Shown in pieces: positions 11,620 through 36,887 of a stretch of DNA of 36,887 nucleotides (within the stretch, counting starts at the first letter, position 1; each line of letters starts with the position of its first letter). The notes under the pieces were generated by a model that did not search any database, was not told the DNA's origin, and saw only the letters and a list, made by a program, of their open reading frames with translations. The translations under genes and the position numbers were made by a program. Origin of the DNA: Bacillota bacterium (GTDB taxonomy: Bacteria; Bacillota_I; Bacilli_A; Acholeplasmatales; Acholeplasmataceae); assembly GCA_018818645.1 (NCBI GenBank), contig JAHIRQ010000162.1, forward strand, positions 1-36,887, read 5' to 3'.

Positions 11620-11810
11620 TTATTAAGTTGAAAGTCATCTTCTTTTATAAAAATATTCGCATTTTATTACTTGAAATAAATGAGTCGATTCTTTAAATTT
11701 AATGGGAAAACAACTACTTATTATTGATATGTTACTGGTGGTAAAGTATAAGAATAAACAGACTCTGTCTCATAAATGACTCGCTAAGTTAACTAACCTA
11801 AAGTCATGTG

Positions 11811-11830: not shown

Positions 11831-11870
11831 AACTGGTGCGTTATAAGATTATTACAATACACTTGTTTTC

Positions 11871-16515: not shown

Positions 16516-16590
16516 TTAACATTCTCTTCTTTCTAATTTTAAAAATATATAAACGGCTGGATAACCAAAACTACTTTATTATCGACTTCG

Positions 16591-17322
16591 CTATTTATAG
16601 TATTTTAATACTTCTTGTTTTTCCAAAACATATCTATTAAATTTATCTACCCATAAAATTTTTTTGTGTGTTCTATTCTTAAAAATGCATCTACCTTTTG
16701 TCTGCAATAAATTTGATTGAACATATTTGTATATTTCGCTAAGTTGATTTTCTCTTGATTTATCAATTAGAGTCTCAGCAAAGTAAAAATGTAGATAGTT
16801 AACAATTTTATAATTATCATCAAACATACATATTCTATGATTTGAAGTGCTAACATATTTTTCATCATAAAGACTCTTATCAATTATAATCCTAGGTACT
16901 TTACTAAACATAGACTCTAATTCAAAAGCTTTTACAAGTGCATCACCATAGACAATGTCTTCATCAATATACAGAGATCCCCTACATATAGATCCTCGCA
17001 TAAAAAAACCAAAATGAAACATCGCCATTGACTGCAATCTAGAAGCAAAATTAATCAACCTCTCTAATGATTTGTTTTCATTTTGCTTAATACAAATTAA
17101 TACGTTATCGGAGAACATTTTGTACTTAAATGCATTTAGAGTATAACTATCAACATGCTCTTTAATAATTACAGACATAAGATATTTCATTTTGACTAAA
17201 AAATCCTTATCTTTCTTTAATAATTTTTTGTATCCCAGTACATCTATATATAAAACAAAGTAGTCTCCTAACTGTAGTTTAGTCTGCCATTCTTTTTGAT
17301 AAACCAAATAGTTATTAAACAT
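16591..17322 (-). CDS. Class III nucleotidyl cyclase-like protein (putative signalling enzyme)
   Basis: 243 aa from the ATG at 17322, which has GGGGGAG directly upstream; an ATG at 17343 lacks a site. The pattern follows the adenylate/guanylate cyclase fold: FVLYIDVLGYKKLL with the first metal Asp (about residue 27), KYKMFSDNVLICI with the second Asp (about 72), then FFMRGSICRGSLYIDEDIVYGDALVKAFELE (about 107-137) and VPRIIIDKSLYD, matching the GI--G--------G-A---A--LE segment and following strand. It differs from the known Pycsar cyclases I can recall (which read FVDIRDSS). No effector with a cyclic-nucleotide-binding domain sits next to it. Whether it makes a cyclic nucleotide is inference. 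Flanked by intact and broken copies of the 222-aa gene. Confidence 0.6.
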   Translation of the reverse strand: MFNNYLVYQKEWQTKLQLGDYFVLYIDVLGYKKLLKKDKDFLVKMKYLMSVIIKEHVDSYTLNAFKYKMFSDNVLICIKQNENKSLERLINFASRLQSMAMFHFGFFMRGSICRGSLYIDEDIVYGDALVKAFELESMFSKVPRIIIDKSLYDEKYVSTSNHRICMFDDNYKIVNYLHFYFAETLIDKSRENQLSEIYKYVQSNLLQTKGRCIFKNRTHKKILWVDKFNRYVLEKQEVLKYYK

Positions 17323-20437: not shown

Positions 20438-22459
20438 TTACTCAATTCCTAAAGACTTAATAACAGCATCTTCTGGACTGCTATAAAAAGACGTTTGGAA
20501 TTTAGCAAATAAATCTGATGGTACTGCTGGTATATCTGCGGCTGATGAAATTGGTAAAAGAATTTTTTTTGCACCAGCATCATGACACACTTGTAAAGAT
20601 GATGCTAGATTCTCGATTTTTTGTATTGTTCCACCAATTGTAAAGGAACCTAACACGCAAAATTGTGACAACACTGGTTTATCTAAAGATGAACTACAAT
20701 ATGCCACTAGAGCTGCTATAGATATACTTGAGACCAAACCAACCCCCTGTACATCTTGAATGTGAAGTACATAGTCTTTGGTGTCAACCATAATGCTTGG
20801 GCTAATGGACTTTGAATTTGCTTTAAAGAAGCGTTCTGCAGTGACAATTGATTCTTTAGGTTCTTTCCCGGTATTAAGTCCACTAACGGAAAATTTCCCA
20901 TTCCCAGATGAAATCTGTGTCTCAAGTTTAAAGATGCCCAACATCCCATTTGATCCTTGACCTATTGTATGAATATGTCCCGCTTTCATTTGTCCTTCAG
21001 GGATAATTTTTCCACCACCTTGTTCTAAAACCGGTACATATATTTCATCCATCGTTGATAATCTAATATAAGAGAATTGAGTATCATAGAATTCCATACC
21101 ACCAATCTTCTTTAATTGTTCTTTCACTCTTCTTCTACCTTCTAGTGCATACTTAAGGATTTCTTCGATTTCTTCTTCTGTATAAACACCATCAGGGTAA
21201 ATTATTTTGACTAACCCCGATACGATTTTCCTTACGGCAATCGTGTCTCTTTGATTAAGACATTTCCCAAGTTTAAAGTATTTATCAAATGCATCTGTTT
21301 GTGGCGTCTTCCTTAATGTTCTTAACACTTCAGCAAAATAGTCTGTAATAAATCCATAATTTTCGGTGAAATGCTCTGGTTTCATCTTTGGCATTTCCCA
21401 ACCTGGAATGTAATTATGCATACGATCAAAGAATGCGCTATCAATCATTGCCTCTGGGAATGGCTCAAATAAATGCGAAGTTTTTAATAGTGACTCAACT
21501 GATTGGTTGATGTTGCCAACAAATACCATAGAAGCATTTGCAGGAATCATTTCCTTACCTCTTGCAAATGATCCCGATGCCATATAGTCTTTCATGATTT
21601 GAATTCCACCTTTATCTTTAAATGAAATTCCAGCAACTTCATCGAATGCAACTGTATCCCACATACTTACAAGTCCTGGTGTTCTTCTAGCTAAATTAAA
21701 AAATAGATTGGCTACTGTTGTTTGCCCACCACTAATTAATATAGAGTTAGGCGATATTTCTTTATAGATGTGCGACTTACCTGTTCCTCTAGGCCCTAGT
21801 TCACACAAGTTTACATTATTTTCAACAAGTGGAATAAGACGTGCTAATAGATGCCACTTAACACGAGGTTTAAATTGAGTAGGTTCCATACCAGTTGAAC
21901 GTAGGACTAAATCAATCCATTCATCTTTTGTAAATTGCTTTCTCCGATCTTTAATCTCATTGATATCGATATTTGGCATTTGAATGGGTGTGAGTTCTTC
22001 AAGTCTAAATGGAGAACCTCCTTCATCTTCATCATAAAAGTAATTAAGCGTAACAATACACCAAATACCATCACTCAGTAACTTTTCGATATCCCTAATA
22101 TATCTATCTGGTACCTTGACTGTAACATTTAGATTATGTAGTCTCCCTAAATAAAGGTTTCTTTTTTCATCGAGTCGTGCAGAAACCACATCAATGACTG
22201 TATAGGTTTGTAATTCCCTTACTTTAGATTTAACAAGTTCTGCTTCATCTGCTCGAACATAGTTTTCTTGGAGGATTTTTTTGACTTGAACAATGCCCTT
22301 TTCAATTTCAGCATCATCATCAGATGTACAATATGTGCCTAAAAGATATTCCAAAACATACGTTGGAACATTTGCGCTATTTTTAATCTTCTTGGTTGCC
22401 CCTTTTTTTACAACACGACCACTAAATTGTTCATAAACTTTTACATCAAGACTGTCCAT
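20438..22459 (-). CDS. brxL: BREX AAA+ ATPase with Lon-like C-terminal domain
   Basis: 673 aa, the usual BrxL length. N-terminal domain about 1-200; AAA+ core with Walker A LGPRGTGKSHIY (221-232), Walker B VAFDEVAGI (about 269-277) and sensor-1-like VFVGNINQS; C-terminal Lon-like domain (about 570-673). In that domain the segment QGVGLVSSISIAALVAY aligns with the Lon catalytic-Ser loop and keeps Ser. The segment TIGGTIQKIENLASSL aligns with PIGGLKEK but has no Lys at the expected place, so peptidase activity is doubtful. BrxL is needed for BREX phage exclusion but not for host methylation in studied type 1 systems. AGGAGG precedes the ATG. Last core gene of the operon. Confidence 0.93.
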   Translation of the reverse strand: MDSLDVKVYEQFSGRVVKKGATKKIKNSANVPTYVLEYLLGTYCTSDDDAEIEKGIVQVKKILQENYVRADEAELVKSKVRELQTYTVIDVVSARLDEKRNLYLGRLHNLNVTVKVPDRYIRDIEKLLSDGIWCIVTLNYFYDEDEGGSPFRLEELTPIQMPNIDINEIKDRRKQFTKDEWIDLVLRSTGMEPTQFKPRVKWHLLARLIPLVENNVNLCELGPRGTGKSHIYKEISPNSILISGGQTTVANLFFNLARRTPGLVSMWDTVAFDEVAGISFKDKGGIQIMKDYMASGSFARGKEMIPANASMVFVGNINQSVESLLKTSHLFEPFPEAMIDSAFFDRMHNYIPGWEMPKMKPEHFTENYGFITDYFAEVLRTLRKTPQTDAFDKYFKLGKCLNQRDTIAVRKIVSGLVKIIYPDGVYTEEEIEEILKYALEGRRRVKEQLKKIGGMEFYDTQFSYIRLSTMDEIYVPVLEQGGGKIIPEGQMKAGHIHTIGQGSNGMLGIFKLETQISSGNGKFSVSGLNTGKEPKESIVTAERFFKANSKSISPSIMVDTKDYVLHIQDVQGVGLVSSISIAALVAYCSSSLDKPVLSQFCVLGSFTIGGTIQKIENLASSLQVCHDAGAKKILLPISSAADIPAVPSDLFAKFQTSFYSSPEDAVIKSLGIE

Positions 22460-22470
22460 GCGTTTACCTC

Positions 22471-24993
22471 CTAGAAAATGGCTTTGAAGCCAAGTATATC
22501 GATTTTAAATACTTCTTTTTCTAAGTATTCACTCTCGTTTTGGTTATCATCTCTTAATATAAGCATATATCTTCTATCGCGATTAAATTCAATGTTGTTT
22601 AGTGTGACTCTAATTCTAGTAATTCTTTGACTTAAGTCATCTGATTCAGAGTTTGCAATAAATGTGTATCTGCCAGAAACATCATTTCCCTGATCATCAA
22701 GGAAATAGATAATGAGCTTTCTTTCAATCTTTTTATCCGCAACTTTCTCAAATTGCTCAAAATCTACAATAAAGCTTCTTTGTGTAATTGTCCGATTTAA
22801 ACTCTTAATTCTCACTCCGACAGGACCTATGTTTTCTTTGAGAGCACCGCTTCTTAGTTCGCTGATTTTTAATAAGGGAACAATAATTTCTTGTAGAGAT
22901 GCTCCACCATGGACATACTGGATGCCGCCCGGTGATTTAAAGTAATCATAACTATAAGGTAAAATGACACTTTGAGTATTATTTCCCATATAATCCAGTT
23001 TAAATTTGAGTGTATAAGGTACTGAAGTATCATCATTTACAATGGCAAATCTTCTTGAAAGTTCAAGTGGTTTAATTTTGCTTACATCATTATATTTCAA
23101 CGATTCATCTACTTTTACTTCACGGTATAAGAAACCGTGATCTGAAGTTACAATGAAATTCGAAATCTGCAATGTATTATACAATTTCTTAATCAGTGCA
23201 AGAATTTCTTCAATCGCAACATTAGCAGCACCAAAAACTTTTGTTTCCTGATGCTCACCCGCGTTATCGATTGCATTATGATAAATATAAACTAATGACT
23301 TATCCTTCATATATTCTCTAATATCCGATCGATTCATCTTTGATATTTCCTCGTATCGAATCGCAGCATATGTTAAGTTACGTGCTTTTAAAATTTTGTT
23401 TCTATTTTCTGTTGTTGCTGTACCAAGGCCGTCAACTAGAATGTCGTTCCCATATTGGATATCTTTATTTGGTAATAATGATGCCATTCCAACTTTGGTT
23501 ATGCTTGGTACTGGTGCTATCATGTTCATCAACTCTGTTTTGCCTTTTAGGACAGAGTCAGATAATATATTATCATATAGTTCTGAAGCAACCTCGTAAC
23601 GTAAAGCATCAGAGATAATAACAAACATTTTTTTAAATGATATTCTTTGTAGCTCAAAATAGAACTGATTTAATGGTGTTTCGCCAATAAATGACCAATC
23701 GTTCTTTTTCTCAAGTGATTTTGAGAAATAACTACCTAGCTTGTCTAGATGCATTTCGTACTGGTTGTTAATATTGATTTTCAATATTTCAATATATTCC
23801 TCAAAGTTATCTATTTGGTTTAATAGAAAAACAACATGTCTATGATGTAAATCAATTTTAAATAGGTTATTTTTATAGAGTTTGATGTATTCTTCACTGG
23901 TGAGATTATCATAAATTTTTGTATCAAGAGATTTTTTTAAGTTAATAATCTCTACAATAGCTTCGTATTCAATTTGATGCGTAGTGTACCAACAGGAATT
24001 GATTCTGTTGTTTTTAATGATATTTTCAAAGAAATCATAATCTAAGCTCCCATTGCTAAGACTTTCAAAAATAGACTTTATAATGAAAGAATCAAAGACT
24101 TCAAATACATCTGAGTTGCCTAAATCATTTAACCCTCTATTTTGAATCAATTCTTCAACACGTAATAAATTTGATATGTATTCCTGTAAATCGTAGTATC
24201 TAGCATCGATTTTTATGTTATCAACCAATAAAAGTGCATCATTAGATGCTTGATTTGATGCTTCAATGATGAATTGTTTATAAAATGGAGAATTAGTTTC
24301 TATTCTAGATGTTTTTACAAGTGCGGTCATCATATACTGCTTGACTAGCGTTAGAATTGATTGCTGTCCAGAATAATTAGTGTATGCATTGATTTGATTC
24401 CAAAGATAATCTTCTAGTCCATAGTTGATGATTTCCTGATATTTAGTTCCTGTTTCAACATCAAAAATCAACTCTGTTAAGAGAGCATCGGTTTTAATAG
24501 ACTTTGCTTTCACTAAAACAGCAATCATGCCATTCATAAGATCAGTTTCTAAAATACTGTCATTCACTGTAACTTGTCTTCTCAAATCACTTATTCTAGC
24601 TTCACTTTTAAAAAACTTAGCATATTTATCCATTACTTTTCTCAAGTATGGATTTGTAAGTTCAAGTTTTCGCATCGTTAAAGCAACTTGGTCAGCGTAA
24701 TATTCAACACTATACAAGAGAATGTCTAGCAACCAATTTTCTTTATCTTGTTGTCTAGCACAAGGAAAATACACTAAATAATTGGATTCCAAATCCTCTA
24801 CTTCTAGTAAGTGTTTAATTGCAAACTCATTATTATCATATATAATCGTTTTAGCTTTCTCAAAGGTATCTCTCTTTACATCATCTAGAAAACTCTTTGT
24901 TTCATCATACCAAAACACAAAGATTCGATGATCATATTCATTAAACTTAGATTCAATTTCTTTTTTTGCTAGTTCGTAATCAATGTTACTCAT
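22471..24993 (-). CDS. pglZ: BREX-1 phosphatase-fold protein PglZ
   Basis: 840 aa from the ATG at 24993 (GAGGTG 7 bases upstream); an ATG at 25005 overlapping pglX lacks a site. The PglZ domain of the alkaline-phosphatase superfamily occupies about 440-700: KKMFVIISDALRYEVASEL (first metal Asp), VPSITKVGMASLLP (nucleophile region), VYIYHNAIDNAGE and IVTSDHGFLYRE (metal-binding DH), then GGIQYVHGGASLQEIIVPLL. The N-terminal half (FVFWYDETKSFLDDV; SNYLVYFPCARQQDKENWLLDILLY) is the usual helical BREX extension. Required for BREX methylation and defence in model systems. It starts 8 bases after the pglX stop. Confidence 0.95.
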   Translation of the reverse strand: MSNIDYELAKKEIESKFNEYDHRIFVFWYDETKSFLDDVKRDTFEKAKTIIYDNNEFAIKHLLEVEDLESNYLVYFPCARQQDKENWLLDILLYSVEYYADQVALTMRKLELTNPYLRKVMDKYAKFFKSEARISDLRRQVTVNDSILETDLMNGMIAVLVKAKSIKTDALLTELIFDVETGTKYQEIINYGLEDYLWNQINAYTNYSGQQSILTLVKQYMMTALVKTSRIETNSPFYKQFIIEASNQASNDALLLVDNIKIDARYYDLQEYISNLLRVEELIQNRGLNDLGNSDVFEVFDSFIIKSIFESLSNGSLDYDFFENIIKNNRINSCWYTTHQIEYEAIVEIINLKKSLDTKIYDNLTSEEYIKLYKNNLFKIDLHHRHVVFLLNQIDNFEEYIEILKININNQYEMHLDKLGSYFSKSLEKKNDWSFIGETPLNQFYFELQRISFKKMFVIISDALRYEVASELYDNILSDSVLKGKTELMNMIAPVPSITKVGMASLLPNKDIQYGNDILVDGLGTATTENRNKILKARNLTYAAIRYEEISKMNRSDIREYMKDKSLVYIYHNAIDNAGEHQETKVFGAANVAIEEILALIKKLYNTLQISNFIVTSDHGFLYREVKVDESLKYNDVSKIKPLELSRRFAIVNDDTSVPYTLKFKLDYMGNNTQSVILPYSYDYFKSPGGIQYVHGGASLQEIIVPLLKISELRSGALKENIGPVGVRIKSLNRTITQRSFIVDFEQFEKVADKKIERKLIIYFLDDQGNDVSGRYTFIANSESDDLSQRITRIRVTLNNIEFNRDRRYMLILRDDNQNESEYLEKEVFKIDILGFKAIF

Positions 24994-25001
24994 AAAGCAC
25001 C

Positions 25002-28000
25002 TCACTTAATTGGAACTAAAAGATCTTTCTTGACCTTTCCATTACTTGTTGATATTTCTATTCCTTGGAACTTTGCATAATTTACTTTAACACCGTCGTC
25101 TAAATTGATTGAGATGTATTTGTTTGCCATATAGTCCAATACTTGACCATATTCAATTGCTTCAGTTAATTGCTCGATTATAATAAACCTTTTCCGTTCA
25201 AGTTGAATTTTATCTTTGTCTAGAGCGGACCCAATAATTTGATCTAACTCATTTATCTTTGTTCGAAGTATTGTGGTTGCTGGTTGAAAATAGTTGGCAT
25301 TTATCTTTGCAAGAGTATCATCTTTATACTTGTGCATATAAACTAAACACTTAAATCCGTTTTGTTTACCACTTGAAAACATCCAATAAATTGGTCGTTT
25401 CTGATAATTCTTTAAATGATCAAAATAAAACTCATCATTTAAATATCTATTTAGAGTTTCTTCGTTTGTTTCATTACTTTTTTTGCCAATAGATTCAGCA
25501 ACGAATTCGATATTATTTCTATAACAATCAACGCCAAAAAATCTCTTTATTAGCCTAATTATTTCTTGAGTTAACCCTTTTTCATTGCTCACATCATCAA
25601 ATAAAGTATATATCCCATTACTGTTGATATCATAATAAACAGCTCCTTTTGATCTCTTATGGCTAAACCCGTTATTTTCATTACTACTCTCTGGAAATCT
25701 ATTCATTAATATACCTACAAGATATGAAATTAAAGACTTTACTTCTAGGTTTTTTTGTGGCAATGTAATAGTTATATCATTATTACTAATATCGAAATCT
25801 AATATATCGTTGAATCCGTAAGTATTTATGAACATTTTGTTTAACTCAATTTCGTTTCTTTTTAATGTTTCAAATCTTTCATTACACAGATTGTAGTATT
25901 TTTCATAATTATCCCTTAATCTTCCAGGAATGTATAAACTATGACATATGAAACCCATAGAGGTCTCATAAGAATTCCAGTCTTGTCTTGATAACTCGAT
26001 ATTTTCTTTAACAAAGTAATTAACTCTTTCCAATAAATTATTATCAACTATCGTGGGAATTAATGCCAAACTTCCCCAATTATAGTGAAGACCAGGACAC
26101 AAGAATTGTGCGTACAATTGAAAAACTTTACTGTTTGCAATACCTAAGTAATAGTAGATATATTTTTCATTGTACACTTCCAACATAGGACCAGATGAAT
26201 CGCTTATAGATCCCTCTGGCAATAAACGAAATGAAATATTACCAGTTGAAACATCGGTATATGTTATACCACTTTTAAAATAATAGTTTTCATTACTCTT
26301 TTGATACTTTGGACTATCTTTTAGTTCTATGCCATTATTTTCATAATTTATTACTAAATTTAAATTCCCATACCATCTTCTAAATAAACCCCCTTTATTA
26401 AATATAAACCATTTTGTTGTTAATACTTTGTTAAAATCAACTTCATGCCAATATCTGACAAATCTATCATTATCACCAGTAGAAATTCTAACCCTTTGTT
26501 GTACATGATCAGAAAATTTGGATTTAGAGAATAAATCAATCGCAATGTCGCTAATCCAATAACCAAATACACTATCCGGAATTTTAGATAATAATGTTGC
26601 CGTTTTGATAAAAATATTATTAGAACTTTGATTATTGGCTTCTAAAAAAATCAATTCTTTATTAACTTGTTCAGTTAGTCGTACGAATTTGATTCTAGCT
26701 AAAGGCATCTTGCAATTTCTAATCACTGTAGTAACTGTTTGTACAACCTCTCCAGATATTTCCTCGAAAGCTCTACTTCCTAGATGAATAAAACTTTCCA
26801 TTTTATAATTGCTGAGAATACTAGTTCTCAAGTTTCTATATGTGGGTTGGTATATCCATGCTTGCATGTTAATTATGGCTGTGAATCCATTTTTACTTAC
26901 GAATCCGGTTTCCATAAACATAGCGAACATATCTGATTTGCTCGAAGGATAATAATCAGAGAAATACTTTTTCGGTTTTAGTTCTAATCCTGTTGAACCA
27001 ATATAGGGTGGATTCGTAATCATGACATCATACTTTGATGCAAGAAAAAATGAAGCTCTTAAAATTTCGAGAACTTCTTTAAACTCTCGACTAAAGAAAG
27101 TAGAAGTGAAAATATCGGGTTGGGTATTCTCTTTTTCATTGATAGATAGTTTTTTTCTAATAGACAAGTATTTTGCTGGTTTTACTTTTAATAATGAGCC
27201 AATAACCTTTGCATCATCAAATAAGTCTACGACATATTCAATCGACTTAATCTCATCATCAGATAATTGATTTTCGCCAATCCATTGCTTAGAGTTGTAC
27301 TCTTTAATTATTTCGAGATATTTTTTCCCGTTATAATTTGCATTCAAGATGGCTTTAGAATCGATAATTTCAAAAACCTTTGGTCTTACATATCTGTTTT
27401 CATCAAAAAATTTATTGTCAATCGATCTAGCTCTCATAACTAATGCAAAAGAAGCTATTTGGGTAGCTCTTTGGTCAATATCTAATCCTACAAGATTATT
27501 CTTAAAAACATGTTGTGGAATATCTCTTTTTGTATATCCTTTTTCGACATACATCTTAACCAACAAATCGAAGCAATACACTAATATATGCCCAGAACCA
27601 CTACAAGGTTCGATAATCTTGATATCTTCAGGATTAACATCTTTATATTTAATCGCTTTTAATTTCTCCTCAACTTCTGGCTCTTGTTCTACTTCTTCCA
27701 CGTAATATTTCATATCTGTCTTAATTGGGGAATTAGGATAACTTTCTAACCATATTCTACCTATTGAGTTCTCAGCCATATATTTAACAATCCAATCAGG
27801 TGTAAAAAGTTGTGTTACTGCTGGTAGTGTATCTTTCGTTACTATATTCTTCGCAGCAAATACTTCAGCCTTTTTATTAGCAATGTAAAACTGATATAGC
27901 CATCCAAGGATTTCTACATCTTCTTTAAAATCATTTTTATCAATTTCAATCAATTTATTGATAATTGTTTCTCCAAATAACAATGGTGCAGGTATGAAAT

Positions 28001-28535
28001 ATTCAAGATAACTCATACCCACTGAAAAAAGCATTGGCAGTGGTTTTGCTAATTCATTACATTGTTGAAAAAGAACATACCGGTATAACTCTTCATTATG
28101 ATTTCCTGAACTCAATAGTTGATTGCAATAAACCATGTCAAGTTTTAATTCGTCAGAAACTAAGGATAATTTGGATAAAATTTCAGGTAGTGTGTTAGAT
28201 TCAGTTGGAAATAGTTTGAACCCATGATCCAAATAATTATGAACTTCCATAAATCTTAAAGCGACAATACGATTGAACCATGTTGATGCAAATTGTTCAA
28301 TGGTATGACTAAAACCATCAGATTTGATTCTATTAACGATGTCTTCTCTTAGAGATTGAAATCCCTTTTTGAAAGTTGTTTCAATACCGTCAATGACAGT
28401 AATATCACCTTGAACTCTCGAACGTTTAATATCTGTTTCTGAATTAATGCCTATTTTCTTTAACGATATTTCGATTTGCTTTTCAAGGTTTAGTTTTGCC
28501 CAAGTGGCAAACTCTTGTAATTTTTTTTTATTCAT
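25002..28535 (-). CDS. pglX: BREX-1 adenine-specific DNA methyltransferase PglX
   Basis: 1177 aa, full length for the family. SAM-binding motif I is IIEPCSGSGHILVYCFD (307-323), followed by LVGLDIDQRATQIASFALVMRA (348-369). The catalytic N6-adenine motif IV is ITNPPYIGSTG (506-516). A long C-terminal target-recognition region follows (WHEVDFNKVLTTKWFIFNKGGLFRRWYGN, TYTDVSTGNISFRLLPEG, GLHYNWGSLALIP). PglX marks host DNA at an asymmetric hexamer, with the sequence set by the C-terminal region. AAGGGGG precedes the ATG. It ends in TGA. No poly-tract suggesting phase variation was seen. Essential for self/non-self discrimination in BREX. Confidence 0.96.
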   Translation of the reverse strand: MNKKKLQEFATWAKLNLEKQIEISLKKIGINSETDIKRSRVQGDITVIDGIETTFKKGFQSLREDIVNRIKSDGFSHTIEQFASTWFNRIVALRFMEVHNYLDHGFKLFPTESNTLPEILSKLSLVSDELKLDMVYCNQLLSSGNHNEELYRYVLFQQCNELAKPLPMLFSVGMSYLEYFIPAPLLFGETIINKLIEIDKNDFKEDVEILGWLYQFYIANKKAEVFAAKNIVTKDTLPAVTQLFTPDWIVKYMAENSIGRIWLESYPNSPIKTDMKYYVEEVEQEPEVEEKLKAIKYKDVNPEDIKIIEPCSGSGHILVYCFDLLVKMYVEKGYTKRDIPQHVFKNNLVGLDIDQRATQIASFALVMRARSIDNKFFDENRYVRPKVFEIIDSKAILNANYNGKKYLEIIKEYNSKQWIGENQLSDDEIKSIEYVVDLFDDAKVIGSLLKVKPAKYLSIRKKLSINEKENTQPDIFTSTFFSREFKEVLEILRASFFLASKYDVMITNPPYIGSTGLELKPKKYFSDYYPSSKSDMFAMFMETGFVSKNGFTAIINMQAWIYQPTYRNLRTSILSNYKMESFIHLGSRAFEEISGEVVQTVTTVIRNCKMPLARIKFVRLTEQVNKELIFLEANNQSSNNIFIKTATLLSKIPDSVFGYWISDIAIDLFSKSKFSDHVQQRVRISTGDNDRFVRYWHEVDFNKVLTTKWFIFNKGGLFRRWYGNLNLVINYENNGIELKDSPKYQKSNENYYFKSGITYTDVSTGNISFRLLPEGSISDSSGPMLEVYNEKYIYYYLGIANSKVFQLYAQFLCPGLHYNWGSLALIPTIVDNNLLERVNYFVKENIELSRQDWNSYETSMGFICHSLYIPGRLRDNYEKYYNLCNERFETLKRNEIELNKMFINTYGFNDILDFDISNNDITITLPQKNLEVKSLISYLVGILMNRFPESSNENNGFSHKRSKGAVYYDINSNGIYTLFDDVSNEKGLTQEIIRLIKRFFGVDCYRNNIEFVAESIGKKSNETNEETLNRYLNDEFYFDHLKNYQKRPIYWMFSSGKQNGFKCLVYMHKYKDDTLAKINANYFQPATTILRTKINELDQIIGSALDKDKIQLERKRFIIIEQLTEAIEYGQVLDYMANKYISINLDDGVKVNYAKFQGIEISTSNGKVKKDLLVPIK

Positions 28536-28546
28536 TATGAGCCCCC

Positions 28547-31500
28547 TTAGTCAATACTAATTTCATCGGTATCATCAAGTTCTTCTAGTAAACGCTTCTT
28601 GATTTCCTCAACAACTTTGTCTATATCTTCTTTAGATGCAATTTTTTTATTAGCGATTGTTACGAGTGAAGAAAGTCGAATATGTTTTGTCTTTCTTCCT
28701 GTCTCGGCTTTAACAAACAACGTTTGAATGAGTCTTCTAAATCCTTCTAAGTTACCACTCGATGACGTGATATATTGATCAAGGTTTTTAGCATCATTAA
28801 GTGTGTTAAAAAGACTAGTGTATCTAGTTTCTAGGTCTGAAAGCGTGTCTTCTACTAAATCAATCTTTTCTTGCTCTAATAATTTTGCTTTTGCTTCAAC
28901 TGCTTCATGTCTAATGGTGCTTAAGTCTTTTTCAAGTTTTTCTGTGGCTTTCTTTATTTTATCTTTACGAATTGCATCTTTAATCTGCTTGGTTTTTAGA
29001 ACAAGTTGACCTAAAATAACCATCTTACCAAATGGGTGGTCATCAGATAGAATGCTCATCATTTGACCCATAAAATCATTAACTTGTGACAAATCCTCTA
29101 ATAATCTGTTTTGTTGGTACCAAGAGTACATTTCTGAGGCATCATTATAGTTTTGCAGTTGAGCGCTACCTTGTTGATAAAAACTAAGAATTTCATCAAG
29201 ATGATCGGCATTATCCTCAAGGAATGTTCTTTTGGAGATAATTTGAGAAAATACATAGCTAGAATCATCGTTCTTTATAATTGAAGATAGTTCTCGATGT
29301 ATTTCAAAAATTCTATTTTTCCCAGGATAAGACTTACCTTCATATTTTATTTGAATATTTTTTAGTGCTTCAACTTTTATTGTCAGAATTTCAAGAATTC
29401 CTTTTCTTATTTTTTCTTCATTTAAAGGATATGTCTCGTTAAAAATAGATTTAACAATTTTTTTAACTTCATTCAGTGTTTCTTCATCTATTTTCTCTTG
29501 TAACTTAATAGATATAGAATCTACTTTATTACCACGAGCAAACTCATATTTATCTGAAGTGTTTGTAATAGATAGAACTTTTCCATGAATATCTAGTTTA
29601 ATCGCATTATGCTTCCATAAGACGCCAATCAAACCTTTAACATCCAGTTCTTTCCATCCATAAGGAGCTTTGCCAAAATAATCAATTAATGACTTAACTG
29701 TACTGCTCCTTGAATTACTCTTATCCGTTTTTAGTTTGGATTTTATTTCTTCATATGCATCTTTGTTGTCATCCAAAGTTTGCCAATCAGATAGCATACC
29801 CTCATCAGAATTAAGTTCATCGAGAATCGAATTAATTGATTCAAAAAGAGATTTCACTTTGCTTAATGCATAATATTTAGACTCAACCATCTTCTTTAAA
29901 GCATCAAAAACTCGCTCTTTACCGTCTTTAGAACCTAGTTCAAGTATAGTTCCATTTGAGTAGATATTTGCTGTTTTAATGGCTAATTTGATTGAATCTT
30001 CAGCTCTTTTTCTTCTGTGAGAAAGCTCTAAGGATTTCTTCTCAAGAATAGTTGCGATTGACGGCGACATGGTCGCTAGATGGTTTTGTTTGAAAACTGC
30101 AATCTTACTGGCATATATAAGTTCACTTATGTAGTTGCCATTTTGTAGGTCTATTATTAATACGTCTTGACCTGATGAATCCATTGCAAGTTGATAGGGA
30201 TCTGATATGCCATAAAAGCCTGTAACTACTTTACAAGTGATATTATTAGGATTATTTTGACCAATATTATGTGAATCAATGAAACGATTAAATGCGAACT
30301 CATACTTGCCATATTTTATCTTCTGATCAACTAAAATAAGTTCATAAAATAACTGTGAGATCGTACGAATGATTTCGCCTTCATCTTGTGCTGTATTATT
30401 TATTTGTCTGTTCACATCTTGCTCTTCATTAGTTAAAAAGTCATAAACATCGCCATTTTTTTGGATGAGTGTTTCTTCCTCTAGAGCTTTAAGTGATGTT
30501 TCAATCTTAATCTTAAGAGCAATTTTATCTTCGCTAATACTTGTAACCATCATCGTTGCAAGTCTGTCGAGATTTGCTGGCATTTCTTTGACATATTTGA
30601 TCATAAATAGCAGTTTTAATACACGTAAATCAAATTCGTTCAAACTTGGTTTTTGTGCTGCGTTTGTAAACACGGTCTTCACATCATAGTCGATAAAGTT
30701 ATCGACAGTTTGGTAAAAATCATCAAATGGCACCAAAACACCTAGTTCTCTATTTGCATACGATTTACTTGATTCTTGGAATGCATTAAGGAGTGATCTT
30801 TCGTTTTGTGATAAGTGCTTACCTTCAGTCATGCCATGGTCTCTAATCGCATTAAAGACTTTTTGAAGTAGTTCAAACTGGTATGAGACAAAGGGGTATA
30901 CATTTTTAAAATCATCTTTGCTGTGATAACCATTCCAAGTTGGTTTCGCATCAAAAATAATGAGATTTGCTAATCTTGCATCGTTTGTTTCGTAGAGAGC
31001 TTCTAATGTCGGCTTAACTTCATCTTTTTTATCAAGAATTCTCTTTTTGATAACTTCATCTGCGTTTGCTCCACTTAATAAAATGCGTGTGTCAAAACGA
31101 CCTTGAATTTTAGAAAAATTATCCCTTATTCCCATTCCACTATCAATCATTGATTTTAAATCTTGCTGGGATGTAACAACTACCCATGCTTTTCCGTTAC
31201 AGTACTTTCCTAAATCTTCAACACAGGTTTGAAGATTAAGCATGAGTTCTGTATTAGACCCTACAAATTGACCGACTTCATCCATTAAAAAAGCAACTCT
31301 AGTTTTATTGGTTTTACAATATTCATCAACAATTTTAGCGAATCTTTCAGTGGTCATTGAAAAGTTATTGACTTGGTCATCAAAATACTTTCTTGCTGAC
31401 TCCTCATCCATATCTCTCACATTAATAAGTGATTTAATAATATGATTTCTATTTAAAAATGCCTGGTTTCTACCATCTTTTTTCCAGTCTTTATTTGAGA

Positions 31501-32068
31501 ATTTATGGAAAACATTCATGAACTCTTCATATTTTGCTTCTTTAATTAGTTCTCTTTCCATATCTGCAACCCAAGGTGTAGTTGCGCTTAGCCCAACTGC
31601 TTCATTGAATGTGCGTAACATGACATCCATAATAGCTTGAGGTTTTGTTTTTGCTGTTGAGCCAGCCTTTGAATCTATGTTAAATATGACTACTTTTGTA
31701 TTTGAGTTTGCTGCCATGTTCATATCAGCAATGATGGTTTCATCTTTAATCTTATCGACAAAAAACTCAGATGCTGTTAATCCTGCAACTGATTTATTTT
31801 CTAATAAGTAGCCAAGCATCTTTAAGAAGTGTGATTTACCCGATCCGAAGAAACCTGTAATCCAAACACCCATTTTACTTGTTGGTGAATTGATAGATTC
31901 GCGGTATTTTTTAAAGAATACTCTGAAATGTTTTACAATTTCATTTGTTACAACATATTCATCAAGTTCTTGAAAAACCTTCTCATCAATCTCGTTTCCA
32001 ATGGTGACAACACCTTCAATGTTTCTATCAATGGATTTTTTAAATAAGTCTTTAATCTTCATATTCAT
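28547..32068 (-). CDS. brxC: BREX ATPase BrxC (PglY-like)
   Basis: 1173 aa from the ATG at 32068, chosen because GGGGAGAGG lies about 9 bases upstream and the start then follows the brxB stop by 4 bases; the longer frame from 32125 would run through brxB without a site. P-loop GVWITGFFGSGKSHFLKMLG (about 67-86) and Walker B RVAFLMDEVGQFVG (about 265-280) place it in the DUF6079 AAA+ group. The long C terminus has helical and coiled-coil stretches (KKATEKLEKDLSTIRHEA, EAKAKLLEQEKIDLVE). BrxC is a large ATPase needed for both BREX methylation and defence. Confidence 0.95.
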   Translation of the reverse strand: MNMKIKDLFKKSIDRNIEGVVTIGNEIDEKVFQELDEYVVTNEIVKHFRVFFKKYRESINSPTSKMGVWITGFFGSGKSHFLKMLGYLLENKSVAGLTASEFFVDKIKDETIIADMNMAANSNTKVVIFNIDSKAGSTAKTKPQAIMDVMLRTFNEAVGLSATTPWVADMERELIKEAKYEEFMNVFHKFSNKDWKKDGRNQAFLNRNHIIKSLINVRDMDEESARKYFDDQVNNFSMTTERFAKIVDEYCKTNKTRVAFLMDEVGQFVGSNTELMLNLQTCVEDLGKYCNGKAWVVVTSQQDLKSMIDSGMGIRDNFSKIQGRFDTRILLSGANADEVIKKRILDKKDEVKPTLEALYETNDARLANLIIFDAKPTWNGYHSKDDFKNVYPFVSYQFELLQKVFNAIRDHGMTEGKHLSQNERSLLNAFQESSKSYANRELGVLVPFDDFYQTVDNFIDYDVKTVFTNAAQKPSLNEFDLRVLKLLFMIKYVKEMPANLDRLATMMVTSISEDKIALKIKIETSLKALEEETLIQKNGDVYDFLTNEEQDVNRQINNTAQDEGEIIRTISQLFYELILVDQKIKYGKYEFAFNRFIDSHNIGQNNPNNITCKVVTGFYGISDPYQLAMDSSGQDVLIIDLQNGNYISELIYASKIAVFKQNHLATMSPSIATILEKKSLELSHRRKRAEDSIKLAIKTANIYSNGTILELGSKDGKERVFDALKKMVESKYYALSKVKSLFESINSILDELNSDEGMLSDWQTLDDNKDAYEEIKSKLKTDKSNSRSSTVKSLIDYFGKAPYGWKELDVKGLIGVLWKHNAIKLDIHGKVLSITNTSDKYEFARGNKVDSISIKLQEKIDEETLNEVKKIVKSIFNETYPLNEEKIRKGILEILTIKVEALKNIQIKYEGKSYPGKNRIFEIHRELSSIIKNDDSSYVFSQIISKRTFLEDNADHLDEILSFYQQGSAQLQNYNDASEMYSWYQQNRLLEDLSQVNDFMGQMMSILSDDHPFGKMVILGQLVLKTKQIKDAIRKDKIKKATEKLEKDLSTIRHEAVEAKAKLLEQEKIDLVEDTLSDLETRYTSLFNTLNDAKNLDQYITSSSGNLEGFRRLIQTLFVKAETGRKTKHIRLSSLVTIANKKIASKEDIDKVVEEIKKRLLEELDDTDEISID

Positions 32069-32072
32069 AGTA

Positions 32073-32663
32073 TTATTCCTCTCCCCTATCAATAATTGGA
32101 AATGCTCTATAGTAGTTATCATCATCTAATCGATCAAACAGTTTTAGATGACCTTTTCTAACAGAAAATCTGCCCGGATACATCATCACAACTGGATTCA
32201 TCTTAAATATGCTTTGTAGATTATTTAGTATGGTATGACTTCTGATGACTGGAAATGATTTTCCAACCCCTGTGATTAAAACAATATGTTTACCATCATC
32301 TGGAACTGTATCACTAAAATTTTGTAAAATTGCGTTACCGGTTTGTTCTAGGGCTAGCATAGGTTGAAATACCTCGTGTAACAGCAGTGACTTATCATAA
32401 TCTTTTTCCATATTCTTAATGGTATCAAAATAACCATTTTGTTTAATAACATCAATCATCATTTCATATAGATCAAATGCCACTATCTCTGGATTGTTCT
32501 TTACGGCTTTATGCACATCATCTCTGACTCTCATCTCATCTTTTGGGTCATAATCAAAAATGAAGAATTTCATATCACCAGCAGTTTTATTCTTATTCAG
32601 ATTCTTAACACTACTCATTTGACTTCTAAATTCATTTAGTCTTTGCCCGATAGTAAGTTTCAT
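32073..32663 (-). CDS. brxB: BREX protein BrxB (DUF1788)
   Basis: 196 aa. Matches the DUF1788 pattern: LNEFRSQMSS...KFFIFDYDPKDEMRVRDDVHKAV (about 9-53), DDGKHIVLITGVGKSFPVIRSHTILNNLQ (about 121-149), then VVMMYPGRFS. These proteins look like a degenerate P-loop or SIR2-like alpha/beta fold; the role is structural or regulatory within BREX and not defined. The ATG directly abuts the brxA stop (TAAATG), and GGGGGAACG lies just upstream inside brxA. Confidence 0.94.
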   Translation of the reverse strand: MKLTIGQRLNEFRSQMSSVKNLNKNKTAGDMKFFIFDYDPKDEMRVRDDVHKAVKNNPEIVAFDLYEMMIDVIKQNGYFDTIKNMEKDYDKSLLLHEVFQPMLALEQTGNAILQNFSDTVPDDGKHIVLITGVGKSFPVIRSHTILNNLQSIFKMNPVVMMYPGRFSVRKGHLKLFDRLDDDNYYRAFPIIDRGEE

Positions 32664-33266
32664 TTAACGTTCCCCCGATATGGCTTTCAGGTATTTATAA
32701 TCGCCAATCTGTTTAATATGTTTGGTTATATCTGGATGAATGATTAACTGCTTAACAAATATGTTTTTAATTTTCCTAATCCCTAGTGTTGAATCAACCA
32801 ACATTTTCCTGTACGCTTTCCCAAGTAATTCAACAGTAGTATTGCTCCATTTATTAACTACTAAATTATTTTCTCTCCTTGAAATGAAAAAATTATCGAA
32901 ATCATCCATAGAAATATACTTCTTATCACTTAAGAGTGCATCTCTATAAACTTCCGATAAAAATTCAGTAAAAAGAATGTCGTGTTTTGCTACTGCATAC
33001 ACAAGGATATATTTAGACGTAATAATGTCGGATTCAATGAATGATTTAAGCAAAAATTGATCGAGCTGAACCAGCCTTTGATAAAGGTGGTTTGTTATTT
33101 CTTTTCTTCTGCCTGGAGATTTTATTTGAAGTTTATTCTCAATAATACATTTTTGATAAACTTGATGCTTATCATTACCTTCAACAATCCACTTAGCAAT
33201 CAATTTCGATTTATTATAATGAAAAGGAACTTTCTTTATTTGTGACGTGATTTTTCGTTGACTCAT
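32664..33266 (-). CDS. brxA: BREX protein BrxA (DUF1819)
   Basis: 200 aa from the ATG at 33266; AAAGGGG lies upstream at good spacing, while the longer frame from 33314 would start inside the promoter. DUF1819 pattern: ETxxVA-type helical start with YNKSKLIAKWIVEG (about 16-29), SPGRRKEITNHLYQRL (about 51-66), YAVAKHDILFTEFLSEVYRDA (about 88-108), and DDFDNFF then WSNTTVELLGKAYRKML. BrxA is a small helical, DNA-binding protein of BREX. First gene of the operon, transcribed from the promoter at 33292-33320. Confidence 0.94.
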   Translation of the reverse strand: MSQRKITSQIKKVPFHYNKSKLIAKWIVEGNDKHQVYQKCIIENKLQIKSPGRRKEITNHLYQRLVQLDQFLLKSFIESDIITSKYILVYAVAKHDILFTEFLSEVYRDALLSDKKYISMDDFDNFFISRRENNLVVNKWSNTTVELLGKAYRKMLVDSTLGIRKIKNIFVKQLIIHPDITKHIKQIGDYKYLKAISGER

Positions 33267-33291
33267 CGCTAAAACCCCTTTCTTAATTAGA

Positions 33292-33320
33292 ATTATACCA
33301 TGATAAATCACCAATTGAAA
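33292..33320 (-). promoter_or_regulatory. Promoter of the BREX operon
   Basis: Minus-strand TATAAT (33292-33297) with extended TGG before it, a 17-base spacer and TTTCAA (33315-33320), a poor -35. The expected start is about 20 bases before the brxA ATG. A tandem pair of 10-mers (TTTAGGTTAG, TTTAGATTAG; 33345-33364) lies just upstream, overlapping the stop of the preceding gene, and may bind a regulator. No BrxR/WYL regulator gene is present in the window. Confidence 0.65.
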
Positions 33321-33354
33321 TAAAAATCGTTCCTTTTTTGATGTCTAATCTAAA

Positions 33355-34227
33355 CTAACCTAAATTTTGATTGCTAATAGCTTTTTTACCCTCTTTGATA
33401 GAAGCTACAAAATATGCATATTTGTTCTCTATTTTCTCATTTACTGTAGGTGTCGATTCTCTCATGCTACCATCAGGCATTGAATAGGTCTTGACCTTCA
33501 TTCTCTCATGGTAGTGGTAAAGGAAATACTGAACCATGATTTTGATATCATTATGAGTCCAACCTTCGTTTTCTGTCATCTTCTGAAATAATCGATCATA
33601 CTTAAAGAACTCTCTTTTATCCAGCTGAGTTAAGTACTTATCGTTAATCAAATATCTTGTGAAGATATGATTTTTAACGACTTCATTTTCATGAATAGAA
33701 TTGTCACTAGATAAAGGTGAATATATATCTTTATCTTTTTTATCATTTCTATTTCTTTTATCTGCTACATCCTTGGATATAGGCTTTGATATAAACCCTT
33801 TAATATCAGATATATTATTGTGTCCGATTTTCGTACCACTCCCGTCCGTTTTTCGGACCCCCTCTTGTTCGATAGTCAAACTGGGGGAGTCCGGTTTTCG
33901 GACGGGGTGTTCGATTTCACTATACATGAATTCATTGGGTATTACTTTGTATTGAATCATCTTCTGATTATTAAGATAGGTTTCATTCTTTTCAATGAGA
34001 TTTTTCTTAATCAAGCTTTTTAAAATCTCAAAGACAGTAGACCTTGCCTTAATTGATAACCTTTCTTGAATATAGCTAATTGCTCCATAATAACTACCTT
34101 GTCCATCTTGTGAATAAGAATATATCAGTGCATATACTCTCATCTCATTTGTTGTCAAACCCAGTTTAGTCATCCAGTAAAACTCAATAATATAATGATA
34201 ATCTGCAATCTCATTCACTAGAATCAC
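33355..34227 (-). CDS. Winged-HTH replication-initiator-like protein of the mobile element
   Basis: About 290 aa. The start is uncertain: a GTG at 34227 follows AAGGAAAGG; a TTG at 34251 and a GTG at 34218 are alternatives. Residues about 15-95 form a winged helix: FYWMTKLGLTTNEMRVYALIYSYSQDGQGSYYGAISYIQERLSIKARSTVFEILKSLIKKNLIEK, as in phage replisome-organiser and plasmid RepA-like proteins of Firmicutes. A variable linker (VRKPDSPSL, GVRKTDGSG) is followed by a helical C-terminal domain. It overlaps the excisionase-like gene upstream. This is standard cargo of integrative elements that carry large serine recombinases. DNA replication or transfer control is likely (inference). The linker DNA can form a long imperfect hairpin (33842-33905). 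Confidence 0.6.
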   Translation of the reverse strand: MILVNEIADYHYIIEFYWMTKLGLTTNEMRVYALIYSYSQDGQGSYYGAISYIQERLSIKARSTVFEILKSLIKKNLIEKNETYLNNQKMIQYKVIPNEFMYSEIEHPVRKPDSPSLTIEQEGVRKTDGSGTKIGHNNISDIKGFISKPISKDVADKRNRNDKKDKDIYSPLSSDNSIHENEVVKNHIFTRYLINDKYLTQLDKREFFKYDRLFQKMTENEGWTHNDIKIMVQYFLYHYHERMKVKTYSMPDGSMRESTPTVNEKIENKYAYFVASIKEGKKAISNQNLG

Positions 34228-34399
34228 TGCCTTTCCTTGTTGTCTTATCAATCAGTTTATTTAAGCTTGATTCAAAGACTCTGCATTGAGTCCCAATACA
34301 AAATGCTTTAAGTTTACCTGCTTTTATATACCGAGAGACTGTTTTTGTTGATACCTTAAGACGTTTTGCTACTTCGTTTACTTTCAAAAATTCATCCAT
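34211..34399 (-). CDS. Excisionase-like small HTH protein
   Basis: 62 aa. MDEFLKVNEVAKRLKVSTKTVSRYIKAGKLKAFCIGTQCRVFESSLNKLI is a MerR-like/excisionase-family helix-turn-helix (HTH_17 type). An AAGGATG site precedes the ATG. It overlaps the next gene by about 17 bases and is divergent from the recombinase. Such proteins steer excision of integrated elements or regulate them. Confidence 0.8.
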   Translation of the reverse strand: MDEFLKVNEVAKRLKVSTKTVSRYIKAGKLKAFCIGTQCRVFESSLNKLIDKTTRKGSDSSE

Positions 34400-34456
34400 G
34401 TTTTTATCATCCTTTCGAGTTGCTTTATTGCTATTGTACTCGGATGATTTGTTTTA

Positions 34457-34529
34457 TTTGGGGGTCAAACTGAAGACTCGTACACTTTTTTACGCATTTG
34501 TTTCATAAGTCTTCAGTTTGACCCCCAAA
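34457..34529. repeat. Perfect 22-bp inverted repeat between the divergent recombinase and excisionase genes
   Basis: The left arm (34457-34478) begins TTTGGGGGTCAAACTGAAG; the right arm (34508-34529) is its exact reverse complement; the loop is 29 bases. It is upstream of both flanking genes, so it is not their terminator. It may be an operator, a recombinase recognition site, or a transfer/replication structure. Confidence 0.85.
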
Positions 34530-34633
34530 GTATTCAATTGTCTCATGTAAAATGAAGATTAAATCAAGTTATGCAATACAAAGCATGAACTTTAAGGTAT
34601 ATAACAAACAACACTATTTGAGGAGGATTTACC

Positions 34634-36250
34634 ATGAGAACCGTTGAAGTCATTAAACCAAGTAATAAATACATTAACCAGGTAACAAAAGAGGTCATCA
34701 AGAAAAGAGTTTGTGCGTATGCTAGAGTATCTACAGATGATGAAGACCAGTTGAATTCGTATAAAGCACAAATTGATGAATACACAACCCGTATTCAAGA
34801 GAATGATGATTGGATATTTATAGGGATGTTTGCTGATCAGGGCATCAGTGGTACCCAAACCAAGAAGAGACCAGAGTTCTTAAAGATGATTGCTCTTGCT
34901 AGACTAAATGAAGTTGATTTGATACTTGTCAAATCGATTTCACGTTTCGCAAGAAACACAGTCGATGTCTTATCACTCGTTAGAGAACTCAGACAAATCG
35001 GAGTCATCATCTATTTCGAAAAGGAAAACTTATATTCTGATGATCCAAAGATAGATTTCACTTTAGCGATACTTTCTTCTATCGCTCAAGAGGAATCTAG
35101 TAGTATATCAACCAATGTAAAGTGGTCCATAGAAAAGAGATTTAAAGCAGGTATCGTTCATATACCAAAGATTTATGGCTATATCAAAATGGAGGATGGT
35201 AGTTTTATAATTAATGAGACTCAAGCTGAAGTCGTTAAACTCATCTACTCTTTATTTATCGAAGGCTATAACATCAATGACATTAGAAAGATCCTTGAAG
35301 AAAAAGGAATCCCTGCAACATCAAGACCCTTATGGAGTTATTCCAGTGTAAGAAGCATTTTAACCAATGAGAAATACACTGGTAACATCATCATGCAAAA
35401 AACGGTTACTCTTGATTATTTAACCCATAAACAAGTTATCAATGATAACATCGCAGATAAGTACTATTTAAAGAATGCACATCCAGTGATTATTCATTCT
35501 GCAGTCTATGAGATTGCTCAAACCATTTATAACGATAAAGTCCGTTATTCAAAGAATCTTGTAACCAAATATCCATTAACCAATCTCATTTACTGTAAGA
35601 ACTGTGGTAGAACCTTAAGACGTCATCATTTAGGTGAAGTTAAACAGCTGAGAAAAATCTGTTTAGATTGTAGACATACCACAATGGATACAAAACCTTG
35701 TGATGCATCCTGGGTGGAAGAAACCCTGGTTAATGACACAATGGATCAAGCAATCAAGGATATCTTATCAAAGAAGAAAGCCTATCAAAGAGTCCTTGAC
35801 TACTATGCATCTAATTACACGTTAAATAGCCTCTATAAGCGATTTGAGGACTTAAGTGAGGAACTCATTGAAGTAAACAATATCAAGGCTAATGCCGAGG
35901 GAAATGAACTCAAAGGGATTCATAAAGAAGAAACAATTATTAAAACTAAGATTCAAAAAATTAGAAAAGATATGATGCATCTTCAAAGAAACGCATCGAC
36001 TATTAAAACACTTAAAAATCTGTATGACAATCCAAATCAAGAGATTCCTACACTTTTCTATAAACACTTCTTTGGCATCATCATTCATCAATCTGGTGAA
36101 CTCATTTTAGTGTTATCTAAATCCCATGAAACCCATGAACTACTTCCGCTCATAAATCAACTTGTAAAATATCCTATATTACTAGAAAACCTACATATCG
36201 ATTATGAACTCAAAAAAGGATTAAATTACAAGGTGATTCTTCATGAATAA
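34634..36250 (+). CDS. Large serine recombinase, first of a tandem pair
   Basis: 538 aa. The resolvase-type catalytic domain begins KRVCAYARVSTDDEDQLNSY with the nucleophile at Ser33, then GMFADQGISGTQTKKRPEF and LILVKSISRFARNTVD. The recombinase domain (about 160-270) has IPKIYGY and IRKILEEKGIPATSRPLWSYSSVRSILTNEKYTGN. The zinc ribbon is YCKNCGRTLRR...CLDCRH...CDASW, and a coiled coil follows (YKRFEDLSEELIEVNNIKANAEG and KIRKDMMHLQRN). GAGGAGG lies 7 bases before the ATG. These enzymes integrate or excise elements at att sites. It overlaps the next recombinase by 8 bases (ATGAATAA), so the pair is translated together. Confidence 0.93.
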   Translation: MRTVEVIKPSNKYINQVTKEVIKKRVCAYARVSTDDEDQLNSYKAQIDEYTTRIQENDDWIFIGMFADQGISGTQTKKRPEFLKMIALARLNEVDLILVKSISRFARNTVDVLSLVRELRQIGVIIYFEKENLYSDDPKIDFTLAILSSIAQEESSSISTNVKWSIEKRFKAGIVHIPKIYGYIKMEDGSFIINETQAEVVKLIYSLFIEGYNINDIRKILEEKGIPATSRPLWSYSSVRSILTNEKYTGNIIMQKTVTLDYLTHKQVINDNIADKYYLKNAHPVIIHSAVYEIAQTIYNDKVRYSKNLVTKYPLTNLIYCKNCGRTLRRHHLGEVKQLRKICLDCRHTTMDTKPCDASWVEETLVNDTMDQAIKDILSKKKAYQRVLDYYASNYTLNSLYKRFEDLSEELIEVNNIKANAEGNELKGIHKEETIIKTKIQKIRKDMMHLQRNASTIKTLKNLYDNPNQEIPTLFYKHFFGIIIHQSGELILVLSKSHETHELLPLINQLVKYPILLENLHIDYELKKGLNYKVILHE

Positions 36251-36887
36251 TGTCATTACCATACCTGTTGTTCAAGGCGTTAAGAAAACAAAAAGAGTAG
36301 CTATCTATGCTAGAGTATCCACACTCGAAGGACACCAGGATTCTAGTTATCAACTCCAGGTTGGAGAACTCTCTAAAAGTATCTTTAAAAACCCCGATTA
36401 CGAGCTTATCTGCATCTATGCGGATAAAGAGTCAGGGAAGACTAATAAACGCTCCTCGTTTCAAAAAATGATGGATTTGGCACGTGCAGGAGGTATTGAT
36501 TTAATCGTGACTAAATCCATCTCAAGATTTGGTAGAAATACGATTAATGTCATCGGAGCAATTCAAGAATTAAGAAAGATTGGAGTTGAAATCTATTTTG
36601 AAAAGGAAAACATGTCGACATTAGATCCAACGATTGATTTCATGTTAACGGTACTCGCTGCATATGCTGAAGAGGAATCAAATCAAATATCAACCAATAC
36701 CAAATGGTCCATCATGAAAAAGATGAAACGTGGTGGAAACACCACCACCAAGCTCTATGGTTATCATATTGAGAAGGAAACATTTACCATCAAAGAGGAT
36801 GAAGCAAGGATTGTATCATTTATCTTTGATAGTTATCTTCAAGGGATAAAATATAAAGTAATTATTGAGCTTCTTAAAGAAAGAAAA
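36243..36887 (+). CDS. Second large serine recombinase, N-terminal part (cut by right edge)
   Basis: The frame is open from the ATG at 36243 to the window end (215 codons). KRVAIYARVSTLEGHQDSSYQLQ places the catalytic Ser at residue 26. It continues with YADKESGKTNKRSSFQKMMDLARAGGIDLIVTKSISRFGRNTINV and EIYFEKENMSTLDPTIDFMLTVLAAYAEEESNQIS, a complete catalytic domain, then the start of the recombinase domain (LYGYHIEKETFTI). It is similar to the preceding protein but clearly divergent, so the two may act together, as with paired Ccr-type recombinases (inference). Confidence 0.92.
   Translation, partial: MNNVITIPVVQGVKKTKRVAIYARVSTLEGHQDSSYQLQVGELSKSIFKNPDYELICIYADKESGKTNKRSSFQKMMDLARAGGIDLIVTKSISRFGRNTINVIGAIQELRKIGVEIYFEKENMSTLDPTIDFMLTVLAAYAEEESNQISTNTKWSIMKKMKRGGNTTTKLYGYHIEKETFTIKEDEARIVSFIFDSYLQGIKYKVIIELLKERK

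Follow-up and report, generated by a model that had tools for sequence, protein, structure and literature searches.

The window examined here, that is, the whole 36,887-nt stretch of DNA that was analysed (contig C55 of genome G000, a member of the Acholeplasmataceae), carries two divergent gene units near its right-hand end. The left unit, on the minus strand, starts with the gene for a 62-aa HTH_17/excisionase-like (AlpA-like) protein (34211..34399), which matched Pfam HTH_17 (4.8e-12) and the PHROG family "excisionase and transcriptional regulator" (7.9e-11; the PHROG scan covered two window proteins). It is followed by the gene for a 298-aa replication-initiator/DnaD-like protein (Rep; 33355..34251, minus strand; HTH_36 and DnaD_N). 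The right unit, on the plus strand, codes for a large serine recombinase of 538 aa (recombinase 1, 34634..36250; Resolvase 2.6e-30, Recombinase 1.8e-19) and for a second serine recombinase that is cut by the contig end (recombinase 2, 36243..36887). The Pfam and PHROG matches agree with the initial annotation, which had placed the feature studied here between divergent excisionase-like and recombinase genes. Three 15-bp iteron-like repeats of the sequence GTCCGtTTTTCGGAC lie inside the Rep gene (33822-33836, 33844-33858 and 33889-33903) as a candidate replication origin. Related mobile elements also have three repeats in the Rep gene, of a different sequence (GTGACA-TGTCAC type in G014 and CGCAAAATGCG type in G019), and this arrangement suggests an origin inside the initiator gene.

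Beyond Rep, positions 1-33314 hold a dense defence cargo on one strand. A BREX cluster, BrxA-BrxB-BrxC-PglX-PglZ-BrxL, occupies 20438..33314 (minus strand), and homologues of TmtA-like and MkoA-like proteins, prokaryotic viperin and AbiEii were found on the same strand among the ten window proteins that were scanned. By eye, brxA is preceded by a TATAAT with its own leader, a site that the promoter scan does not list.

The region between the two units contains a perfect inverted repeat. Its arms, 34457-34478 (read as TTTGGGGGTCAAACTGAAGACT) and 34508-34529 (read as AGTCTTCAGTTTGACCCCCAAA), are complementary at 22 of 22 positions and enclose a 29-nt spacer (34479..34507, no strand), so that the repeat stands exactly as first described in position, arm length and loop. 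A search of the 36,887 bases with a 14-nt seed gave three inverted pairs of at least 18 nt, of which only this one was fully complementary. The 19-nt core was found twice in the window (up to 3 mismatches), compared with a mean of 0.01 in 100 shuffles, which upholds the earlier view that the repeat is not due to chance.

Each arm reads as a directional element of the form AGTC[AT]TCAGTTTGACC[CA]C[CT]AAA. The two copies face away from each other, and in both a TANAAT −10 box follows GACC at a distance of exactly 24 nt. The left arm carries AGTCTTCAGTTTGACCCCCAAA on the minus strand and points towards the HTH_17/Rep unit; 24 nt after its TTTGACC stands TACAAT (34433..34438, minus strand). The right arm is the same element on the plus strand, directed towards the serine recombinase pair, with TAAAAT 24 nt after its TTTGACC (34548..34553). 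These two boxes were recognised as sequence patterns and would act as the −10 boxes of putative promoters.

The arm pattern was searched for without its −10 box and gave 13 sites in 6 of 101 genomes, compared with none for a reversed-pattern control; TANAAT was intact exactly 24 nt after GACC in all 13. When the −10 box was included and the search was run on 160 genomes of the order, 15 matches were obtained (reversed-pattern control 0). These comprised all 13 earlier sites, the second arm of the G019 locus and a 3-mismatch match at G014:C56, downstream of which no gene was shown. Counted by stretches, the pattern without −10 occurred 8 times in viral contigs and 13 times in species genomes; four more sites (L092, L093 twice and L094) came from two further viral scans, the patterns of which already required the −10. 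Over all collections there were 28 distinct copies of the core, GTC[AT]TCAGTTTGACC with 0 mismatches, a definition that leaves out the G014:C56 match; a copy needed at least 85 nt of context to be counted, and each site was entered once even if delivered repeatedly. In 25 of the 28, 24 nt was the one spacing in the range 0-49 nt at which TANAAT occurred, and most of these 25 sites fall within a few phage and island lineages and do not represent 25 independent events. The background frequency of TANAAT was 0.0027 per position in eight fetched sequences. The three copies lacking the box come from records of unrelated bacteria, one each from Clostridia, Bacteroidales and Desulfobulbaceae. Among the copies, the arm and its −10 were nearly invariant. 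Among the papers listed in searches of the open-licence PMC literature, none reported the element.

At the −35 position these sites show a C[CT]AAA-like hexamer, and no −35 box is recognisable. When the stretch 15-19 nt ahead of the −10 was compared with TTGACA, none of the 25 sites did better than 2-3 of 6 positions; of TANAAT sites overall, roughly one in four has at least 4 of 6. Neither proposed promoter appears in the output of a consensus promoter scan, which depends on a −35 and would be expected to miss them; over 33200-34700 the scan returned 11 promoters against 7.4 in shuffles (sd 2.6), which is not clearly above the background. By standard numbering from the −10, with start sites placed on that basis, the element spans approximately −52 to −30 and is centred at about −41. 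Class II activators sit centred near −41.5. The loci thus combine what a class II promoter would be expected to show: TANAAT at a fixed distance (25 of 28 copies), a poor −35 and a site centred near −41. The fixed distance and the missing −35 argue for activation, as both are expected of it and neither is needed for repression. The λ CII protein offers a likeness, since its site at pI and pRE lies across the −35 region of the integrase promoter and several promoters share one site. The CII site consists of TTGC direct repeats, whereas the island element has a different sequence and also serves late-region genes. The long-spacer promoters of MerR type were also considered; they have a gap of 19-20 nt between −35 and −10, compared with 24 nt from TTGACC to TANAAT here, and this class was rejected.

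Inspection of the genes within 1,000 nt downstream of the 25 copies with a −10 box revealed a serine recombinase at 8, an excisionase-like HTH_17 gene at 4 and a phage late-region gene at 13 (prohead protease 6, DUF3846 4, TerS-like 3). None of these gene types was found within 1,000 nt downstream of the three copies without −10. On contig C31 of G014, the genes after DUF3846 code for a small phage protein, the large subunit of terminase and the portal protein; a capsid protein gene comes after the prohead protease gene. The element therefore marks three late-region units of the phage as well as the phage recombinase, and we infer that the three units would form one late regulon. The phages carry single arms; among the genomes with the element, this single form occurs four times in G014 and once each in G017 and G064. 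In L018, the TerS-like gene opens a phage unit that includes a gene (15608-16819) that by eye resembles an S-adenosylmethionine synthetase gene, the product of which matches PHROG 1569 (function unassigned) at 1.1e-119.

The inverted-repeat form itself was also present at G000:C56, G002:C34 and G019:C292, and an HTH_17 gene stands just downstream of one arm at all four loci. The C56 repeat is the second one in the genome of the window and is likewise located between HTH_17 and serine recombinase genes; L005 (G000:C56, 1-10558) represents a second island head with its own inverted repeat and a different cargo. The spacers are 29 nt long in the window, G002 and G019 and 30 nt in C56. Their sequences are nearly identical between the window and G002, and those of C56 and G019 differ from these. 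The arms of G019 measure 24 nt with one mismatch. The view in the initial annotation of the repeat as part of a control region between divergent genes is supported, and the same arms were found again beside related recombinases. The initial annotation had also named the absence of the repeat from otherwise similar recombinase modules as evidence against it, and this holds in part: the modules of phages have one arm and no inverted repeat. Within each repeat the two arms are more alike than the phage sites are among themselves. The GTCATC shared by both G019 arms was examined as possible compensatory covariation; this idea was weakened by the phage IMGVR 3300005326, whose three late sites read GTCATC and whose recombinase site reads GTCTTC, so that the position is tolerant. 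A distance of 51-52 bp, close to five helix turns, separates the centres of the two sites, so contact between proteins bound at both sites is possible.

Based on these observations, we consider it highly probable that the repeat consists of two back-to-back copies of one promoter control element, which would give a pair of divergent activator-dependent promoters. We predict that one transcription activator binds each arm, at a position centred near −41, and would thereby fire a promoter that has a TANAAT −10 and no usable −35. The left copy would drive HTH_17 and the replication initiator, the right copy the two serine recombinases, and one signal would then turn on island excision and replication together. 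As the same element precedes three late-region units and the recombinases of related phages, that signal may be of the phage late or lytic type. This proposal takes the element to be a promoter, the factor to be an activator and all copies to be bound by one factor. The close likeness of the two arms is a point against it, since separate activator sites do not by themselves demand such likeness.

The initial annotation had offered other roles for the repeat, as a recombinase or excisionase binding site, an att core or an origin-of-transfer hairpin. Its place between excisionase-like and recombinase genes would suit a recombination site or att core; however, single arms with the fixed −10 spacing precede prohead protease, TerS-like and DUF3846 genes, and two phage copies, those of G017 and IMGVR_UViG_3300005326_000711, have the end of their phage sequence 3.6 kb away from the element. 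The two match each other past the end of recombinase 2 and diverge at TATGGTGC; in G017 a tRNA-Leu gene (L020:6795-6881) has its 3′ end there. The ~60 bases that follow in the viral contig look by eye like part of another tRNA gene, and ARAGORN reports no tRNA gene at this end, where the sequence stops with the contig. A serine-integrase att site would hold the crossover, and in these two copies the junction lies at that distance instead. Together with the single arms before head and packaging genes, this speaks against an att core. Recombinase binding is unlikely too, as the phages keep a lone arm and yet the arm and its −10 are nearly invariant, and overall we regard a site for recombinase, excisionase or att function as very improbable. 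The part of the claim that concerns the excisionase fared better in one respect: HTH_17 could still bind the arms, although its similarity between elements does not follow the promoter element. An RNA or single-stranded DNA hairpin, acting as attenuator, oriT or replication signal, would be consistent with a perfect 22-bp stem and with the folding of 34440-34633 as RNA (z = −5.4 against 200 shuffles). An intrinsic terminator has a short loop and a T run; here the loop is 29 nt, no T run follows and the scan found no terminator-like sites in 33200-34700, in agreement with the earlier statement that the repeat is not placed as a terminator. No Rfam family reached its gathering score in the window. 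Transcription predicted from the −10 boxes would start beyond the repeat on either side, which would leave the repeat out of both transcripts. The phages, moreover, keep one arm without its partner at the same −10 spacing, and this near invariance of arm and box disfavours an oriT hairpin in particular; we judge any hairpin role to be improbable in the extreme. A similarity search of 34380-34760 in named phages matched the coding part of the recombinase only, in 3 records.

A second element that resembles the first in layout was identified as GTATGCT[GC]TGAGCCA-N24-TANAAT. In G072 (0 mismatches) and in G258 (3 mismatches) it stands before the related recombinase. A copy with one mismatch precedes a 73-aa TerS-like remnant in G070, which is 36% identical over 69 aa to the phage TerS-like protein and matches the PHROG terminase small subunit at 1.8e-5. 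When the two elements are lined up on the −10, 8 of 15 positions agree by our count. The search gave matches in 4 of 10 genomes, including one at G000:C177 (3 mismatches) before unrelated-looking ORFs, and the reversed pattern, used as control, matched once, in G072. By eye, G102 has a sequence of this kind too, with 25 nt to the −10 and not 24. The only match in the viral scan lies inside a coding region and was taken as chance. From these few sites, the second element looks like an independent case of a link between recombinase and packaging genes.

The activator that would act on the two promoters may quite possibly be phage-encoded, although we hold this short of probable. Several proteins were examined as candidates for a factor common to phages and islands. 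The CI-like phage repressor was rejected, with no match in G000 at E 1e-5. A second RpoD-like sigma factor, encoded at L142 4197-5117 on the phage-bearing contig of G014, has close relatives (at least 68%) only in G014, G003 and G060 of 18 genomes, its other matches (29-46%) presumably including main sigma factors, and was rejected as well. The same applied to a small XRE protein, with close matches (84-100%) only in G014 and G017; its other matches reach 25-32%, among them one of 29% in G000, on another contig (C189). Complete modules contain HTH_17, Rep and two recombinases. Rep is encoded in 5 of 5 same-genus genomes with the element and in 0 of 5 same-genus genomes without it, and is absent from G064, which has one single site. 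As the binder of the arms Rep was rejected, because the repeats in the Rep gene differ between mobile elements while the promoter element does not. The HTH_17 and initiator proteins of the island fit poorly as activator, and the CI-like, sigma and XRE candidates are without close relatives in G000; an island factor is accordingly no more likely than one that a phage or the host supplies in trans.

The same promoter pair could instead be served by the HTH_17 protein of the island, turning on its own gene and the recombinases in an AlpA-like positive feedback. The constant place of its gene just downstream of one arm would fit, HTH_17 genes are present in the G014, G017 and IMGVR 3300005326 phages as well, and a passage of PMC11773190 describes AlpA of Gram-negative PICIs as raising its own expression. 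We nevertheless consider this rather unlikely. Phage and island HTH_17 proteins with the element in common are 36-46% identical, compared with 47-52% between island proteins and that of the G072 phage, which has the other element, and HTH_17 relatives occur in 22 of 160 genomes against 6 for the element. This reading would further require HTH_17 to drive late genes in the phages, and in the portion of PMC10803314 that describes it, alpA expression of PICMI115 left satellite gene expression unchanged. A host protein that senses stress or DNA damage, its site borrowed by phages and islands, would account for an element that stayed nearly invariant while the adjacent HTH_17 and Rep genes diverged, as expected if the factor is conserved elsewhere, and the poor prospects of the CI-like repressor and second sigma factor as shared factors also favour it. 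Such a regulator would be expected to control host genes too, yet with the exception of the 3-mismatch match at G014:C56 the genes that follow the sites all belong to phages or islands, and the sites occur in 6 of the 160 genomes from this order; we find this alternative similarly doubtful.

Under the preferred reading, a pair of activator-dependent promoters, the mobility genes of the defence island may be tied to a phage-type gene switch, as the same element precedes late genes of related bacteriophages. An unexplained hairpin becomes a defined regulatory element that can be searched for by sequence and that links the mobility of a defence island to phage late-region genes in Acholeplasmataceae. 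We tentatively put forward, as one possibility, that the island is a phage-inducible defence carrier, in which the late activator of an infecting phage would switch on excision and replication. If so, the block mobilised by the phage would hold BREX, viperin, AbiE and other defence genes, and the perfect inverted repeat would be a two-sided sensor of phage infection. Should the factor be phage-encoded, the repeat would provide a large defence island with a transcriptional infection sensor. The element also offers a route to the late activator of these phages.

Known systems share parts of this arrangement. The P2 activator Ogr also serves the late genes of P2 itself, and its sites lie near −55. 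Phage P2 offers a parallel, since its Ogr trans-activates the satellite P4, leading to excision and replication, in the passage on this pair in PMC7552001, much as we propose for the island and a phage late activator. The island differs in that its element lies at approximately −52 to −30 and the site is doubled back to back. In PICIs and PICMIs, expression of alpA rises with the helper phage, according to passages in PMC11773190 and PMC10803314. The island resembles them in its core of integrase, AlpA-like small HTH protein and replication gene, which by family matches are present together as in satellites, and differs in its large serine recombinase pair, its large defence cargo and an activator-type element common to phage late genes. 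A helper link is suggested by the shared element alone, and we do not file the island as a phage satellite. The PLE of Vibrio cholerae is described in part of PMC6002521 as an anti-phage island with a large serine recombinase, the excision of which phage infection triggers; in PLE the recombination directionality factor is a phage protein, whereas the link proposed for the island is transcriptional.

Several other repeats were noted in the course of this work. In G052, G253 and G335 a different hairpin of 14-15 bp, followed by T's, lies upstream of the recombinase, with a similar one by eye in G006; these were set aside as not being the same feature as the inverted repeat. The hairpin in the G052 stretch (L070) is not listed by the terminator scan, its loop being longer than the scan allows. 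This hairpin and T arrangement upstream of serine recombinases (L069-L071, and L068 by eye) looks like attenuation control. Just past recombinase 2, three phage copies (L039 13170-13235, L020 and L019) carry GTTCGGAACCACATTACCCC twice, ~40 nt apart, and these pairs are possible recombination-related repeats. Finally, four copies of a 22-nt repeat of CATATGTGCAACAC type, two of them identical, lie between defence ORFs of the window (3068-3089, 5583-5604, 5816-5837 and 11810-11831).
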